Shown here piece after piece: positions 31,953-41,760 of a stretch of 41,760 nucleotides of DNA (positions within the stretch are counted from its first letter, which is position 1; the number at the start of each line of letters is the position of its first letter). Source of the DNA: an uncultured Victivallaceae bacterium (GTDB lineage: Bacteria > Verrucomicrobiota > Lentisphaeria > Victivallales > Victivallaceae). The notes below the pieces were generated by a model. That model ran no database searches. It was not told the DNA's origin and saw only the letters and a program-made list of their open reading frames with translations. A program made the position numbers and the translations under genes. Location: the NCBI GenBank assembly GCA_944389925.1, contig CALXOD010000023.1, forward strand, positions 1 through 41,760, in the 5' to 3' direction.

Positions 31953-32840
31953 TCACCGGGTCTGTACGGCCAGCCACCCTTCCCGACCGGGAAACGGTCG
32001 CGGCTCCATGCATCCTTCCGGCGCCGCCTGAAAACGCCGGGCGATCTCTCCCAGCGGCACAACAGAAAACCCCAGTGCCTTCACCCGCCGCAGATAATCC
32101 TCGAACATTCCGCGACAACGTCCGCCTTCGGCCTCCGCGTGAATGGTCAGTACATTCGGCCCATCCTCCCGCAGCAAGGCGATCTGGCGATCATTGTAAT
32201 TTTCGTCCGTCACCCCGTCACGCCCAAGCATTTCATCGTAAGTCGGCAGCGTCACCGGGATCTGAAGACGACTCAGCTTCTTCCCCTCCACCACCGGGTA
32301 AAACGGCGTCATTCCCCGACAGTCCGAATCAAAAGCGAAAGGGAAATCCGCCTTGACCAGCAGCAACCGGTCATTGGTCCGCCAGCCGGGGGTAGCGCTG
32401 GAAATCGGCATGGCACCGGTAATCCGCTGGAGCTCCTCCACGCCGCGCGCAAGTTCCTCCTGCATCTGCGCAGTGCTCATCCGGTCAATCTTCGCCTGGG
32501 AGCGATGGTGATCCCAGGCGTGAAATCCCACTTCGTGCCCCGCTTCCGCCGCCTGTCGGATCTGCGCCGCCAGCCGGCGACCGATCCGGGGTCCCGGCCA
32601 GGCGGTCCCCATCAGCACGATCTCCGGCCCATACAGCCCTGCGGCATCGGTACGCAGCATCTTCCACAAAAAGGCCGGTTTCAGCAGCCGCCACAGATGC
32701 CGTCCCATATTATCCGGTCCGACCGAAAAATAAAAGGTCCCCCGAACCTGATGCCGCGCCAGAATCTCACACAACGCAGGCACCCCGCGCGCCGTCCCCC
32801 GGTAGGTATCGACGTCAATTCTCAACCCGATGATTTTCAC
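31953..32840 (-). CDS. arnD: 4-deoxy-4-formamido-L-arabinose-phosphoundecaprenol deformylase
   Basis: ArnD is a polysaccharide-deacetylase-fold enzyme that removes the formyl group from undecaprenyl-phosphate Ara4FN before transfer of Ara4N to lipid A. The 295-residue product opens with LRIDVDTYRGT, the ArnD version of the deacetylase metal motif (Asp9, Asp11), and has GHEVGFHAWDHH for the metal histidines. The start is GTG at 32840 with GGAGG four bases upstream. It follows arnA by 27 bases in the same order as in enterobacterial arn operons, supporting ArnD over a generic chitin or peptidoglycan deacetylase. Confidence 0.87.
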   Translation of the reverse strand: MKIIGLRIDVDTYRGTARGVPALCEILARHQVRGTFYFSVGPDNMGRHLWRLLKPAFLWKMLRTDAAGLYGPEIVLMGTAWPGPRIGRRLAAQIRQAAEAGHEVGFHAWDHHRSQAKIDRMSTAQMQEELARGVEELQRITGAMPISSATPGWRTNDRLLLVKADFPFAFDSDCRGMTPFYPVVEGKKLSRLQIPVTLPTYDEMLGRDGVTDENYNDRQIALLREDGPNVLTIHAEAEGGRCRGMFEDYLRRVKALGFSVVPLGEIARRFQAAPEGCMEPRPFPGREGWLAVQTR

Positions 32841-32867
32841 GGTGCCTCCGCGCTTTTCGTTGCCAGA

Positions 32868-34859
32868 TCAGCGGGTGAATTCGCCGGAACGCATCGCCTC
32901 TTCGAGGAAGAAATTCAGCGTGGTTTCGATCGACTGATCCAGCGGAATCCGAGGCGTCCAGTCCAGCAGCTTCCGGGCATTGCGGATGCTCGGCACGCGA
33001 TGCTGCACGTCCTGATACCCTTTGCCGTAAAATGCGCCGCTCTCCACCACCAGATAACCGGCAAAAGGCGGAAAATGTTTGCGCAACGGATGTTTTTCGA
33101 ATTTTTCCACCAGCATTTCCGCCATCACCTTGATGCTGGCCTCGTTCGCGGGATTGCCGATGTTGATGATCTGGCCGTCGCACTTGCCGCCTTTGTTTTC
33201 AATAATGCGGAACAGCGCCTCCACCCCTTCGGAAATGTCCACGAAGCAGCGCTTCTGTTCGCCACCGTCGATCAACTGAATCGGCGACCCCTGAACCAGA
33301 TTGAGAATCAGCTGCGTAATAGCCCGGGAGGAGCCGATCCGCGCCGAATTCAGCGAATCCAGCCGCGGCCCGATCCAGTTGAAGGGCCGGAACAACGTGA
33401 ACGACAACTGGCCTTTGGCGCCATACGCCCAGATCACCCGGTCCAACAACTGTTTGCTGGTCGAATAGATCCAGCGCTGCATCCGGATCGGCCCGGTCAC
33501 CAGGCAGGAGTTATCCTCGTCGAAACTCGGATCCTGGCACATGCCGTACACTTCACTCGTGGACGGGAAGATAATGCGTTTTTTATATTTGACACAGTAC
33601 CGGACGATCCGCAGATTCTCTTCGAAATCCAGCTCGAACACCCGCAGCGGATTGCGCGTATATTCGATCGGTGTGGCGATCGCCACCAGCGGCAGTACAA
33701 TGTCACACTTGCGGATATGATATTCGATCCACTCCCGGTGGATGGAAATGTCCCCTTCGCGGAAATGAAATCCCGGACGATCCAGCAGATGATCGATATA
33801 ATTCGAACGCAGGTCAAGACCGTAAACCTCGTATTTGCCGCTGGCCAGCAGCCGCTCACTCAAATGACTGCCGATAAATCCGTTGACGCCGAGAATCAGC
33901 ACGCTTTTCTTGCGTCCGGCCTCCCGCATCCGTCGGGGATCATTCCCGAACACCATGTTTTTCACCACCCGCCCGTCCGCGGCAAACTGCTCGCCGGTCG
34001 TGCAGACCGAACCGTCAAACTGGGCCTGCCGTACCCGGATAGCACCTTCGCCGCAGGCAATCGTAAGCGGCGCAGACTGCAGCACCGTACCCGGAGCGGC
34101 ATCCCCTTCCCGATTCATGGCATCCACCGCCCAGAAAAAGCATTTGCGTTCCCCGAGGAAGGAAAATGCCCCCGGATAAGGCCGGGTCACTGCCCGTACC
34201 AGATTCCGGACTGCCGTGCTGGACTGTGTCCAGTCAATCTGGCCATCAGCGGGAGTACGTCCACCGAAGCAGGTGGCCTGCGATTCATCCTGAGCCCGGC
34301 GCGGCGCCTTACCGGCGAGCACCAGCGGCAGGGTACGCTTCAGCAGCACCGTCGTTGCAGCACAGGCTTTGTCAAAGAGTGTACGGGCGGTATCATCGTC
34401 ACTGATGGCGAAACGTTCCTGATCCACAATGTCTCCGGCATCTGCCCGGGCCGTCATGTAATGTAAAGTGACTCCGGTCTCCTTTTCACCGTTAATGATG
34501 GCCCAGTTGAGCGGCACCCGGCCACGGTATTTCGGCAGCAGCGAACCGTGCAAATTCAACGCGCCGTATTTCGGAATCTCCAAAATCGCCGGTTTGACGA
34601 GCGACCGGTAATAAAAGCTGAAAATCACCTCCGGCGCCATTGCCCGGATACGTTCGACCCAGACAGGGTGATTGATATCTTCGGGAGCGAAAACTTCAAT
34701 CCCCTTGTCCGCAGCGAGTTCTGCTACGGAGCCGAACCAGATGTTCTCAGCCGGGTTATCCCGGTGGGTAAATACGGCAGAGATCTCGAACCCCGCCTCC
34801 AACAGTGATTCGATTCCGACCCGGCCGATATTATGATATCCCAGCACGATACACTTCAT
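32868..34859 (-). CDS. arnA: Bifunctional UDP-L-Ara4N formyltransferase/UDP-glucuronate dehydrogenase
   Basis: ArnA oxidatively decarboxylates UDP-glucuronate and formylates UDP-Ara4N, for cationic modification of lipid A that lowers polymyxin binding. The 663-residue product is nearly the same length as E. coli ArnA. The formyltransferase triad falls at Asn102, His104 and Asp140, with HGSLLP. The SDR half begins at about 318 with [10 protein letters not shown], has STSEVYGMC with Glu436, and YSTSK with Tyr465 and Lys469. A GGAGGAG site precedes the ATG. arnB, arnC and arnT are not in the window, so the pathway must be completed elsewhere or is partial. Confidence 0.95.
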
Positions 34860-36838: not shown

Positions 36839-36915
36839 GGGGCATTAGCTCAGTTGGCTAGAGCATCACACTGGCAGTGTGAGGGTCAGCGGTTCAAGTC
36901 CGCTATGCTCCACCA
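36839..36915 (+). tRNA. tRNA-Ala (anticodon GGC)
   Basis: A 77-base tRNA with encoded CCA. The acceptor stem is GGGGCAT with ATGCTCC (one G-T pair), the anticodon stem TCACA/TGTGA encloses CTGGCAG giving GGC, and the T arm has GGTTCAAGTCC. It reads GCC alanine codons. No terminator follows; recombinase sequence begins at once, consistent with an element integrated at its 3' end, which keeps the tRNA intact. Confidence 0.95.
36886..36915. other. Probable left attachment site within tRNA-Ala
   Basis: The recombinase reading frame continues 30 bases into the antisense of the tRNA 3' half and stops there. This is the pattern left when an element crosses over within or at the end of a tRNA gene. 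The exact core cannot be defined without the other junction. Confidence 0.45.
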
Positions 36916-38352
36916 TTCATTACATTTGGACGAACTCGCAGAGGGTTCGATGCGATAACGGTTCTCACCAACGTGATCAATACGCGAAATATGTGTGAGA
37001 ATCAACCTTCTCAAACCGGTGCGATCAAAATTAGAACGAGCTTCGGCAAGCAACCTGCCCGTGTTACGCATGATTTCCAGTTCCCGTTGAATGTCATCGA
37101 AAATTGAGGTGTCGCTCCCTTGCGCCTTCAACATCTCAACCCGTGCTGTCAATCGTTCAATTTCACGTGTCAAATAGTTCAACTTGTCATTCAAGAAACC
37201 AGCTTCATTCAGATTGTCGAGCGACAGAATGACCTTGTAGATACGGTTCCGCTCCTGCGTCGCTTCCGTCCGGGCATTGATCGCTTCTTCCACTTCCGGA
37301 TGCACCCGTGACAGGAATTCATCACGGGCCTTCAGCAGTTTTTTCTCCATAGTGGCCAGCAATCTTTCATCAGAACGATATTTTTCCAGCTGATCCAGAA
37401 CCGCGTCTTCTATTTTTTCCGCCTTGACACGGTTTTTGCATGAGGAATCGGAGCAAACGTAATAATGATATCTCCCCCCTTTCGCACTGGCGGGGGACAT
37501 TGAGCATCCACAATGGCATTTCAAAAGCCCCGTCAGCAAATAGGTGTATTTTTGCGCGTTAGGGCGGCTCGAACGTGGCGTCGCCGGAATCATGGATTGA
37601 ACGGATTCGAAAAGAGATTCCGGGATAATCGCATCATGCTTCCCCTCAAATTCATGACCGGCATACACAATCTTTCCCAAATAGGTCCGATTTCGAAGTA
37701 TCGTAAACAATGCCGATTTCCCGATCACTCCGCGATATTTGGATAAAATATCCATCGTCTGATATTTTTCCGAGGCGTACATTTCGAAAATATCCTTGAC
37801 GATTTGCGCCTCCCGGGAATCCACATAAAGTTTGTTGTCTTTTTTCTCCCCACGTTTATAACCGAATGGCGGATTGCCGGTCGGCCACATCCCCTTTGCG
37901 GCAATGCTGATCATCTTATTTCTGATGTTTTCAGCGGTCTGTTCTCGTTCAAACTGGTTGAATACCTGCATGACCCCGAGCATCGCCCGACCCGATGGAG
38001 TGGAAAAATCCAAATGTTCCGTCGCGGAAATGAACCCCTTACCCTGTTCAAACAGCGTGGCGAAAATTTCCGCTCCATCTCGAAGATTTCTGCTCATCCT
38101 TGAGAGCTTATAAACGATCAGGGTATCCCATCCGGCATTCCCTGACCGCAGTTGTTCCATGATTTGCGAAAATCCGGGACGTGCAATATCCTTACCGGAA
38201 AAGAATTCGTCGGATATCTCGCCGACAACCTCTCCGCCGTGAAATTTGACGTATTCGCGGCAATAATCAATTTGCATCCGGATTGAGGTTTCCGTCCCAT
38301 CCCAGCTGGAGCCCTTCGGCGAAACACGGGCGTAAATTAAGTATTTCATCAT
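36886..38352 (-). CDS. Large serine recombinase (integrase)
   Basis: This 488-residue site-specific recombinase begins with the resolvase domain: YARVS with the nucleophile Ser11, KLSRMSRN with catalytic arginines, and the recombinase domain from about 160 (GNPPFGYKRG). A zinc ribbon follows (CHCGC and CSDSSC, residues about 282-312), then a long coiled coil (330-440). It would integrate and, with a directionality factor, excise the element. The last dozen codons and the stop come from the antisense of tRNA-Ala, so the C-terminus depends on the integration site. ATG-ATG at 38352/38349; no strong ribosome site is visible. Confidence 0.88.
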   Translation of the reverse strand: MMKYLIYARVSPKGSSWDGTETSIRMQIDYCREYVKFHGGEVVGEISDEFFSGKDIARPGFSQIMEQLRSGNAGWDTLIVYKLSRMSRNLRDGAEIFATLFEQGKGFISATEHLDFSTPSGRAMLGVMQVFNQFEREQTAENIRNKMISIAAKGMWPTGNPPFGYKRGEKKDNKLYVDSREAQIVKDIFEMYASEKYQTMDILSKYRGVIGKSALFTILRNRTYLGKIVYAGHEFEGKHDAIIPESLFESVQSMIPATPRSSRPNAQKYTYLLTGLLKCHCGCSMSPASAKGGRYHYYVCSDSSCKNRVKAEKIEDAVLDQLEKYRSDERLLATMEKKLLKARDEFLSRVHPEVEEAINARTEATQERNRIYKVILSLDNLNEAGFLNDKLNYLTREIERLTARVEMLKAQGSDTSIFDDIQRELEIMRNTGRLLAEARSNFDRTGLRRLILTHISRIDHVGENRYRIEPSASSSKCNEWWSIADLNR

Positions 38353-38410: not shown

Positions 38411-39517
38411 CTATGACAGCAAGTGGAGATTACTGATCAGGTTGCAGGCAAACCACGGATCCTCCAATTTAAAATACTGCGGTTTCGCTGTTGCGCCGTC
38501 TTTTTGAACTATAATACCGTCTGCACAAGGATTTACGCAAATTATCTTTTTCACAGGTATTTTTACAGCTTTCAGCGATGATAACCAGAATAGATGCTTG
38601 TTTGTAATCAATAACGATCCGCAACCAATATTGACAGTTTCAGTTGTGTCTACAGGATATCCCTTGAATGATCCGGTGCGGAAATACACTCCCTTGGCGA
38701 CTCTGAAACTCATTCCAGCGCTACCGCCTTCATAATGCCGTCTATTGCGATCTTCATAGTAATCAACATTATTGAAAATCCATATCGGTTCTTCTCCTCG
38801 TTGCATGATTACTGGGAAATTTATTGTTATATTTACACGCTTGCTGATTATTCCGCTTAAAATATCCCGCAATACAAGACTTTTTGTGATTTTCATCATA
38901 TAGGTGCTATCGTCTTCTTGCACTATTTCAAATGTGTCTGATAAAAAATCAAGAACTTTCTCTTCCTCTTCAGAAATAACTCCATCTTCCAACGCTTTGT
39001 CGATTATCTTTCGCCACGCCTCTATAATGCTGTTTCTGGTCTCTTCTCCGCTCATCCCATACAGATTCGATATATGACGCACCTTTTGTTGTATTCCGAC
39101 CAAATTATCTAATTTTGATGATGCCGATACTATTTCATTTACGATTGTTGCGTGACCGTAATTTTTTATTTTTTCACCTGGAATGCTGTTCCACGTCTTG
39201 ACCGGATCGAGACACATTGCAGAAATCATTTGTACAAGAATAGAAATTTCATCTTCGGAAATAAAACCATCCGATAGCGCTTCAGTCGCTTTTTCTTCCC
39301 AGCATTCCTCGAGGAGTGATTGCAATACCTTATCTGGAATCATACGTTTTTTCGCTGTATGTGCAATTACCTCTCCGATATTCATACAATCGCGACTTTG
39401 ATAAATTTGATCAATACATTGCCGAATGTAACTCTTTCCGTGCATAAATGAATCGTAACATTCCTGATGTTGACGTTTCATGAATCCTGCAGGTTCTCCA
39501 CAAAAACGACATTTCAC
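38411..39517 (-). CDS. Unknown protein: zinc knuckle, duplicated helical repeat, PH-like tail
   Basis: I do not recognise a named family. The 368-residue product has a CxxC-x10-HxxC knuckle at 3-20. Two similar acidic helical segments follow (80-98, LSDGFISEDEISIL; 177-195, LEDGVISEEEEKVL), which resemble TerB-like modules and indicate internal duplication. A beta-rich C-terminus (about 278-365) contains GSLLITNKHLFWLSS and IPVKKI, the pattern of bacterial PH/GRAM-like domains. The start is GTG at 39517 with GGAGG eight bases upstream, 17 bases after the repressor stop, so it is probably transcribed with the repressor. Codon use is visibly more A+T-rich than the host genes. That position suits a lysogenic-conversion or immunity gene; this is inference. 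Confidence 0.68.
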   Translation of the reverse strand: MKCRFCGEPAGFMKRQHQECYDSFMHGKSYIRQCIDQIYQSRDCMNIGEVIAHTAKKRMIPDKVLQSLLEECWEEKATEALSDGFISEDEISILVQMISAMCLDPVKTWNSIPGEKIKNYGHATIVNEIVSASSKLDNLVGIQQKVRHISNLYGMSGEETRNSIIEAWRKIIDKALEDGVISEEEEKVLDFLSDTFEIVQEDDSTYMMKITKSLVLRDILSGIISKRVNITINFPVIMQRGEEPIWIFNNVDYYEDRNRRHYEGGSAGMSFRVAKGVYFRTGSFKGYPVDTTETVNIGCGSLLITNKHLFWLSSLKAVKIPVKKIICVNPCADGIIVQKDGATAKPQYFKLEDPWFACNLISNLHLLS

Positions 39518-39534
39518 GATCTCCCCCTCCCGTT

Positions 39535-40479
39535 TTACAGTTCACAGCTTTTTCTAACGACGATGCCAATCCAAGCAATTTCACTGGTGCTGTTCACGGT
39601 AATATCTTTTCCGGTTTTTTCATTGTCGCTGGTCAACATCAGGATCGAACCGGCCCGGCGCAGACGTTTACAAACCACCGTACCCGCATATTCGGAATCA
39701 TCCGAAAAACGGACGATCACAATTTTTCCGGACGGGATGCTGTTCATGTCGTATTGTTCTTCGCAGAACAGGATGTCTCCGTCGGCAATCGTTGGCTCCA
39801 TCGATACGCCGTGAACCCGGAATGCCTGCGTGTTCCGCCGAATTCCAACCGGCGCCAGCGCAACATCTGTTGTTTCCGGATCCCATTTCTTCATGATCGG
39901 TTCACCGTTACGGCCGACGAGAGAGGCGATGTGCGTCGCGGCATTCGCCCAGTCCACCACCGGGACCGGGCGAGTAAGAACTCCAAGCTCCTTGTAAATA
40001 CCGTCGGGAGCCAGCAGGCCACGTTCGGCCGGTGTCAAGGGCGCGTCATCGTGTTTGATATTCAGCCCGTCCAGAACCGCAGAGAGCACATCAGGAAACC
40101 AGTTCAGTTTCCCCGCCAGCAAACGCTCGATCGAGTTTGCCGAATCATAACCAATCCGGCGACTCAGTTCCGACGCATTACGGACGCCTTCGCGCAACAT
40201 CGCATCTTTGATGCACTCCCGGAGTTCCGGAGTGTTCTGAATGGTATCTTGGATTTTCGGAGGAACTGGTTCCGGTTCGTCTTCGAGATACGGGCGCAAT
40301 ACGGGCTCGATCGTTGCCCACGTACTGTTGTTGAAGTGCGTTGGCATGTTTTTGTAAATTTTGCTCAAATGTTGGGGGGATAACCCCATGCGACGGGCAA
40401 GTTCAGCTTGACTGATTTCACTGCTCATCAGCCGAAGACGACGAAACGCGTTCCTAATTTGATCAGTGACAGGTTGCAT
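39535..40479 (-). CDS. S24-type phage repressor with two HTH modules
   Basis: A CI/LexA-like repressor of 314 residues. The first XRE-type helix-turn-helix is at about 22-42 (ISQAELARRMGLSPQHLSKIY). A second DNA-binding-like segment lies at 88-140 (NASELSRRIGYDSANSIERLLAG). The C-terminal S24 peptidase domain has Ser226 in GVSMEPT and Lys271 in VVCKR. No Ala-Gly or Cys-Gly cleavage dipeptide is visible in the linker 141-215. The ATG at 40479 is chosen for TGGAGG five bases upstream; 40491 is an alternative. It should hold the rightward promoter at 40576 silent. Confidence 0.87.
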   Translation of the reverse strand: MQPVTDQIRNAFRRLRLMSSEISQAELARRMGLSPQHLSKIYKNMPTHFNNSTWATIEPVLRPYLEDEPEPVPPKIQDTIQNTPELRECIKDAMLREGVRNASELSRRIGYDSANSIERLLAGKLNWFPDVLSAVLDGLNIKHDDAPLTPAERGLLAPDGIYKELGVLTRPVPVVDWANAATHIASLVGRNGEPIMKKWDPETTDVALAPVGIRRNTQAFRVHGVSMEPTIADGDILFCEEQYDMNSIPSGKIVIVRFSDDSEYAGTVVCKRLRRAGSILMLTSDNEKTGKDITVNSTSEIAWIGIVVRKSCEL

Positions 40480-40506
40480 AAACGCCTCCATAATTTTATC
40501 GCATCA

Positions 40507-40535
40507 AACATAACACTTTAACAAAAAAATATCAA
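40507..40535 (-). promoter_or_regulatory. Promoter of the repressor gene
   Basis: On the minus strand TTGATA (40530-40535) and TATGTT (40507-40512) are 17 bases apart, with a leader of about 20 bases to the 40479 start. Confidence 0.6.
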
Positions 40536-40556
40536 GAGAATGTAAAAAAATATCAA
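40523..40556. repeat. Two direct repeats in the switch region
   Basis: The 13-mer AAAAAAATATCAA occurs at 40523-40535 and 40544-40556, 21 bases apart (two helical turns). The first copy contains the -35 of the repressor promoter, so these may be binding sites for autoregulation. Confidence 0.55.
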
Positions 40557-40575
40557 AAAAAAATCATTCCGTGGC

Positions 40576-40607
40576 TTGACAATATAAACTCACAAATTTA
40601 TATTGTC
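40576..40607 (+). promoter_or_regulatory. Early rightward promoter with overlapping operator
   Basis: TTGACA (40576-40581) and TATATT (40599-40604), 17 bases apart, form a near-consensus promoter. An 11-bp perfect inverted repeat, GACAATATAAA (40578-40588) and TTTATATTGTC (40597-40607), covers both hexamers. A repressor dimer bound there would exclude RNA polymerase. Confidence 0.8.
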
Positions 40608-40637
40608 ACCATTCCATTAACAAAAGGAAGGTGTGGA

Positions 40638-41127: not shown

Positions 41128-41760
41128 ATGGAGAATCGTAATCAGCTTTTTGATGCATCCATCGAGCGTGTCATGATGGACATCGAACAAACCAGGCGCG
41201 AGGATGTCATAGTTGACGCAAACCGCGTCCGCCTGGTCCCGTCCCCAAACGGCACCCGAATTGAAGCCGCATTCGAGGGAAAGGTACACCCGGTCAAGCA
41301 GGTGGCATTGAACCAGATCGAGGGAACACTGCTTCCCGGATTTTCGACCTTCGGCCGGAACCTTGTGCAAGCCGGAATGCGTGATCTCTATATCGATAAC
41401 GCCAACCGTCTGCTGGAGCGATCCGGAGACAAAAAGATGGTGCGGATGAGCGCAGCTGGGGATGGGGAAATGTCCCTCCGGGCGTGGCTCTCCACCAGCT
41501 ATCAGCGATATGACGACGACGTCGTATTCGGCGCGATGCTCGACGCTATCGAAGACGCCCCGGAATCCACGGCATTCCGGAGCATCGGCGGTTACCGTAC
41601 TGATTCAACCAGCTACATCAAACTCGTTACAAAAGACCCGTTGTTCTCAATTTTTGCAGATGGCCGCGAACGGGCGTTTTCCCCCGGTTTCATCCTCTCC
41701 AATTCGGAAGTCGGACAGGGATATTGCCGACTGGATATCCTGCTGATCGACCGCTATTGC
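41128..41760 (+). CDS. DUF932-like phage/plasmid protein (3' end outside window)
   Basis: The frame from ATG at 41128 stays open for 211 codons to the window end. GAGGTGA five bases upstream is a strong ribosome site. The part seen resembles DUF932 proteins of phages and plasmids: LRAWLSTSYQRYDDDVVFGAML and FSPGFILSNSEVG are the family-like blocks (first strand/helix of the core, then the SNSEVG motif). DUF932 function is unknown. Truncated by the window, not by mutation. Confidence 0.6.
   Translation, partial: MENRNQLFDASIERVMMDIEQTRREDVIVDANRVRLVPSPNGTRIEAAFEGKVHPVKQVALNQIEGTLLPGFSTFGRNLVQAGMRDLYIDNANRLLERSGDKKMVRMSAAGDGEMSLRAWLSTSYQRYDDDVVFGAMLDAIEDAPESTAFRSIGGYRTDSTSYIKLVTKDPLFSIFADGRERAFSPGFILSNSEVGQGYCRLDILLIDRYC

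Follow-up and report, generated by a model that had tools for sequence, protein, structure and literature searches.

A PH/GRAM-like gene behind the repressor of a Victivallaceae prophage, a candidate for superinfection exclusion or defence

The lactococcal sie genes are placed between integrase and repressor, a slot also occupied in Dub35A by orfs 3-5, for which no phage resistance was seen when they were tested (PMC7693887). Tha, likewise a prophage gene, is expressed from the cI operon (PMC11087260). TerY-P, whose triad has been described (PMC11090510), gives Pseudomonas anti-phage protection (PMC10889362), and Ter clusters have been associated with resistance to tellurite and colicin and with inhibition of phages (PMC7371120). 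SNIPE is a membrane-bound phage-DNA nuclease, homologues of which can bear a PH or DUF4428 domain when they have no transmembrane (TM) segment (PMC13190303), and the tested anti-phage system Shango includes a TerB-like subunit (PMC10250203). Here we compare with these systems a gene in a window of 41,760 nt, the whole stretch of uncultured Victivallaceae DNA that was analyzed.

The gene (38411..39517, -) has a GTG start and encodes a 368-aa protein with an N-terminal zinc knuckle, predicted helical TerB/Tic110-like repeats, and a predicted PH/GRAM-like C-terminal domain. The frame was kept open in none of 2000 base shuffles, and the 189 differences from the homologue in another Victivallaceae genome (G009) are distributed 43/20/126 over the three codon positions. 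Based on the excess at third positions (126 of 189), we infer selection at the protein level; as judged by these substitutions and the open frame, the gene is shown to be real, conserved, and under purifying selection. Its GC content is 39.1%, compared with 57.9% for the host part of the window, 53.0% for the repressor, and 48.1% for the integrase, and just 0.5% of windows of its size reach so low a value. The composition is foreign relative to the host, in accord with a sequence-only reading that had called the gene more A+T-rich than the host genes.

Upstream lies a CI/LexA-type repressor gene (39535..40491, -) with HTH and Peptidase_S24 domains. The 17-nt gap between the two (39518..39534, -), which reads TAA-AACGGGAGGGGGAGATC-GTG and includes a strong Shine-Dalgarno sequence (ribosome site GGGAGGGGGAG), confirms the earlier placement of the start 17 bases past the repressor stop on the same strand. 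It is too short for a promoter or terminator, and from this geometry the gene is probably co-transcribed with the repressor as one unit. A divergent promoter region (40492..40637), with promoter-like sites on both strands, separates the repressor from the first rightward early gene. A rightward early gene at 41128-41760 (+) is cut by the contig end and matches PHROG 1362, of unknown function, weakly.

Downstream of the gene is a large serine integrase (PHROG 95; 36886..38352, -), the last codons of which overlap tRNA-Ala(GGC) (36839..36915, +). The two genes lie on opposite strands, and the integrase C-terminus, ...WWSIADLNR, is read from the sequence complementary to the tRNA 3' end. The prophage probably integrated at this tRNA, which would mark its left end; the assembly yielded no right attachment site in the form of a repeated tRNA 3' end, consistent with a contig that ends inside the prophage. 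Host genes at 31953-34859 (-) resemble, by eye, an ArnD-type polysaccharide deacetylase and an ArnA-type bifunctional enzyme of lipid A modification. The gene sits between repressor and integrase on the repressor strand, as do lysogeny-slot superinfection-exclusion genes.

In a search of 100 genomes that counted the window's own, close homologues occurred in that genome and G009 only, with one remote match, and the gene is rare and patchy in this set. The nearest named relative is from a Victivallis metagenome-assembled genome, of the same family as the window genome. The G009 homologue (contig 25) is 83% identical and occupies the same slot behind a repressor, in a tailed prophage with portal, terminase, head protease, major head, tape-measure, and tyrosine integrase genes. 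Where they were compared, the two elements have one block in common, 1,834 bp at 84%, comprising the C-terminal part of the repressor and the gene, whereas the repressor N-terminus and the integrase (serine versus tyrosine) differ. Directly behind the G009 homologue, before the integrase, is a gene for a staphylococcal-nuclease-like secreted protein (L005:11109-11558, +). The place beside the integrase, with the repressor on the other side, is kept in the window, G009, and Lactobacillus phages and would also suit an accessory factor for integration or excision. We regard this role as highly improbable, given that the same gene accompanies integrases of two types and that no excisionase-like domain was found in the window protein.

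The knuckle predicted by the sequence-only reading is a CxxC-x10-HxxC motif at residues 3-20 (CRFCGEPAGFMKRQHQEC; 39458..39511, -), with ligands C3, C6, H17, and C20 invariant in seven sequences. Two acidic helical units with a DGxIS-E motif follow, which are mutually similar in a pairwise test (BLASTP 6e-5). The first (residues 61-110, containing EALSDGFISEDE; 39188..39337, -) was recognized from the predicted structure and its likeness to the second (residues 142-203, containing KALEDGVISEEE; 38909..39094, -), and only the latter reaches Pfam TerB (PF05099), below cut-off at 17.1 versus 24.4 bits. The best TerB score of 11 relatives was E 0.00088. Against solved structures the family profile matched Tic110 best (4bm5, 4e-9 to 6e-8), with TerB structures 2ou3 and 2jxu at only 0.25 and 0.5. 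The repeats were predicted at pLDDT 92, and no TerB entry was among the structures listed by the fold search. The two TerB-like repeats proposed earlier are partly confirmed: the units resemble each other and appear to be remote TerB/Tic110-like helical repeats, nearer to Tic110, rather than TerB family members, and we name them accordingly. In a fold search the N-terminal 228 residues returned generic helical proteins only (eIF2B epsilon, cullins, Munc13; Z <= 8.8), and no fold is claimed for them; weak PADLOC matches to PDC-S48 (0.0014) and Cmr5 reflected the helical repeat alone.

An AlphaFold2 model built from 11 sequences, with the Prevotella and Moraxella plasmid homologues left out of the structural alignment, has a pLDDT of 86.8 and comprises a short knuckle, helices (residues 18-220), a beta barrel (244-350), and a final helix (354-367). 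Residues 229-368 (38414..38833, -) gave Z 13.7 to the Lam6 PH-like domain (5yqr; 1.9 A over 97 residues), followed by MTMR2 (13.0), Vps36 (12.4), and BBS5 (12.4). In the model they form a barrel with roughly seven strands and a capping C-terminal helix, the arrangement of the PH/GRAM-like superfold. Pfam gathering scores were missed (Vps36 15.9 versus 24.1 bits; GRAM and bPH_3 below cut-off, in relatives only). From the model we confidently assign a PH/GRAM-like fold to this region. Of the checks suggested with the sequence-only reading, structure prediction bore out its PH/GRAM-like tail, and the profile search placed the repeats nearer to Tic110 than to TerB. A full-length Foldseek search, in which the top matches were DH-PH exchange factors at low whole-chain TM scores, was set aside.

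The beta1-beta2 loop (residues 257-286, RNRRHYEGGSAGMSFRVAKGVYFRTGSFKG; 38660..38749, -) is the most basic and best conserved stretch of the family (top-residue frequency 0.61, K/R 25%, D/E 2%); the model is at its least confident here (pLDDT 62-71). In PH domains generally this loop is a common site of lipid head-group binding, and the modeled window protein may bind membrane lipids through it. The highest 19-aa hydropathy of the protein is 1.28, compared with 2.45-2.76 in three relatives from the same slot described below (L004, L019, L066), and by this measure it has no TM or lipoprotein segment of the lactococcal type. No nuclease or other enzyme domain was recognized in it. No Pfam or NCBIfam model scored above cut-off, and the matches to PHROG and PADLOC were weak, those to NCBIfam YmfL and PHROG being discarded; these scans support the view that it fits no known phage family, and the modular layout of the sequence-only reading is likewise supported.

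Relatives were found by protein similarity alone, with genomic context ignored; a single-sequence scan of viral contigs returned none, alignments being needed for detection. About ten phage lineages, including the window and G009, have a relative in the repressor slot and about six have one elsewhere. A locus with unclear reading frames (L031) and another outside any phage setting with no more than a remote PH-like tail (L018/P0004) were left out of these counts. Hosts of the slot lineages, where known, are Victivallaceae, other Verrucomicrobiota, Bordetella, and Lactobacillus. The relative follows an HTH gene after 29 nt in L023 and after 48 nt in L027, where the left neighbor is Mu-type transposase-like by eye, and an HTH-S24 repressor after 20 nt in L025/L026, with an integrase downstream. 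Lactobacillus phage JNU_P4 (L043) has a DUF4428+PH-like gene after CI-like and ImmA-like genes, again with an integrase downstream, and in the Lactobacillus-type prophages L047 and L048 the order is CI, ImmA-type gene, relative, DUF5067 lipoprotein, integrase. The PH-like and lipoprotein genes of the latter two (L048:5917-7386, +), enclosed by the ImmA-type gene and the integrase, may cooperate.

In two loci from other Verrucomicrobiota (L019, L066) an HTH gene is followed, after 46 and 2 nt, by a TM+PH-like gene, and in Bordetella phages (L004) such a gene comes after the repressor and one further ORF. All three have a hydrophobic segment in place of the repeats, consistent with placement at the membrane. 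Relatives away from any repressor occur near tail or terminase genes (L024, L042, L053), in T4-like phages (L028/L029), and in L030. The L030 gene (7632-8312, +) joins a TM2 domain to the PH-like tail and lies on the strand opposite the neighboring phage genes. If a random gene is taken to lie directly behind a repressor about once in 50 cases, a rough assumed figure, the occupancy of ten of about sixteen lineages is far beyond chance; counting the window and G009, whose block has a common ancestor, as one leaves about nine independent slot cases. The repressor slot is common for the family and not universal.

Across the slot family the front ends vary (knuckle+TerB, TM, DUF4428, or none), as do integrases and repressors, the latter being of HTH+S24, HTH-only, or HTH+ImmA type. 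The persistence of the PH-like tail and the slot through these changes points to expression in lysogeny and not to partnership with one repressor. A partner in lysogeny control, sensing a signal and modulating the repressor or prophage induction, would suit a gene that adjoins the repressor, forms one 1.8-kb block with its C-terminus in two prophages, and follows repressor and ImmA-type genes in Lactobacillus phages. The changing repressor types beside a constant gene, and the several phages in which it lies far from any repressor, make such a role quite improbable.

Outside this setting, full-length homologues are found inside two Bacteroidota-type TerY-P-like operons. The Prevotella plasmid pE2-28 protein WP_237827913.1 is 28.9% identical to the window protein over 98% of its length, in an operon with a zinc-ribbon kinase, VWA, PP2C, an FGE-like protein, UvrD/exonuclease, and an FtsK-type ATPase; IMG/VR contig L054 has a full-length homologue with Pkinase, VWA, and PP2C confirmed. 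The triad of VWA, PP2C, and Ser/Thr kinase is present at relatives L006 and L054 and was not found beside the window gene, whose neighbors are repressor and integrase. On the mobilizable Moraxella osloensis plasmid NZ_CP068110.1 an unannotated TerB-PH ORF (L007:3-749, +), cut at the record start, lies by a VWA gene. The identical architecture within TerY-P operons, the occurrence of phage copies without kinase, phosphatase, or VWA partner, and relatives in T4-like phages that have no repressor would be expected if the phage protein mimicked a host TerY-P or Ter-type component and blocked it, shielding prophage or progeny. We consider such counter-defence improbable: a gene expressed in the lysogen as part of a repressor operon more typically serves defence than anti-defence, and the TM- and DUF4428-PH proteins in the slot have no TerY-P counterpart among the relatives found.

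In a Verrucomicrobiota genome (G214 C57) a TerB-PH-like protein is fused to an HNH endonuclease (L068:2741-3997, -). Close to it are an ion-channel-type gene and a gene for a product resembling a type I restriction N-terminal domain. Three genomes of one Verrucomicrobiota family (G171, G326, G399) have chromosomal-looking homologues without obvious phage or defence context, and one checked member of this set has a GYF_2 N-terminus. Such chromosomal TerB-PH proteins, the TerB-like motif of the window protein, and the published associations of Ter clusters would also accord with a lysogenic-conversion fitness factor that protects against envelope or metal stress, as thought for Ter proteins, and has no direct effect on phages. 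This is a credible though unlikely explanation, because no other ter gene lies nearby in the window, the TerB match is under cut-off, slot-mates without TerB repeats retain the PH-like domain and the position, and homologues occur in TerY-P and nuclease contexts.

We give about an even chance to the reading of the gene as a lysogeny-expressed prophage moron with a membrane-docked product, a candidate for superinfection exclusion or defence. The occurrence of relatives in the same slot of unrelated phages suggests that the candidate probably protects its host from other phages. The protein would be translated from the repressor transcript during lysogeny and held by its PH/GRAM-like domain, via the basic beta1-beta2 loop, at the inner face of the cytoplasmic membrane, where the knuckle and acidic repeats could act as a sensor binding metal, nucleic acid, or a partner. 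Superinfecting phages would then be excluded or countered, perhaps by a block to DNA entry, recruitment of another effector, or signaling. The sequence-only reading had proposed exclusion or defence, and its support comes from position and company (ten slot lineages, TerY-P operons, the HNH fusion, and the sie and Tha precedents), with the six or so lineages away from the repressor, the three chromosomal-looking homologues, the lack of a recognized enzyme domain, and the Dub35A result telling against it.

Two elements are new here, the PH/GRAM-like core that unites the repressor-slot family and the occurrence of a full-length counterpart within TerY-P operons. More speculatively, and in our view doubtfully, the PH/GRAM-like proteins of this slot may constitute a class of prophage immunity proteins not described before, in which the front end can be exchanged (knuckle+TerB repeats, TM, or DUF4428), the knuckle+TerB form being a stand-alone version of a TerY-P component that links superinfection exclusion to TerY-P phosphorylation signaling. 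If the reading as exclusion or defence is right, a small and very diverse family, whose members in deposited phage and plasmid records are mostly labeled "hypothetical protein" or "TerB family", would acquire a role open to testing in membrane-docked superinfection immunity, poorly understood TerY-P signaling would be tied to prophage biology, and C..C...AG.....H.EC together with the RVAKGV loop behind a repressor would serve as a search handle.

Among described proteins, TerB of Klebsiella and E. coli (PF05099; 2jxu) resembles the window protein in the acidic helical DGxIS..E motif and a weak profile match, whereas the latter falls below the Pfam cut-off, has no ter operon, and carries an additional knuckle and PH-like domain. 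With the PH/GRAM domains of Lam6, MTMR2, Vps36 (GLUE), and BBS5, and of Pfam bPH_3 and GRAM, it has the predicted fold in common (Z 12-14); its sequence is under all Pfam cut-offs and its basic beta1-beta2 loop is long and conserved. Shango combines a TerB-like protein with an ATPase and a helicase, and the available description mentions no PH-like domain; the window has no such ATPase or helicase neighbors, and a PADLOC scan, in a release that may not include a Shango model, gave no Shango match. The SNIPE domains DUF4041 and GIY-YIG nuclease had no Pfam match in the window protein, yet the parallel is striking, since the N-terminal alternatives of SNIPE homologues (TM, PH, and DUF4428) recur in the repressor-slot family. 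Sie2009, SieF7/2AB, and Tha are, as published, prophage accessory genes of the repressor-integrase slot, expressed in lysogeny and acting in exclusion or defence; the window gene is likened to them by slot and not by sequence, and neither the hydrophobic N-terminus of Sie2009 nor the HEPN domain of Tha is seen in its product. The TerY-P-associated proteins of Prevotella and L054 have the same knuckle, helical repeats, and PH-like tail, the Prevotella protein in an operon with kinase, VWA, PP2C, and FtsK-type ATPase, whereas the window gene stands alone behind its repressor.
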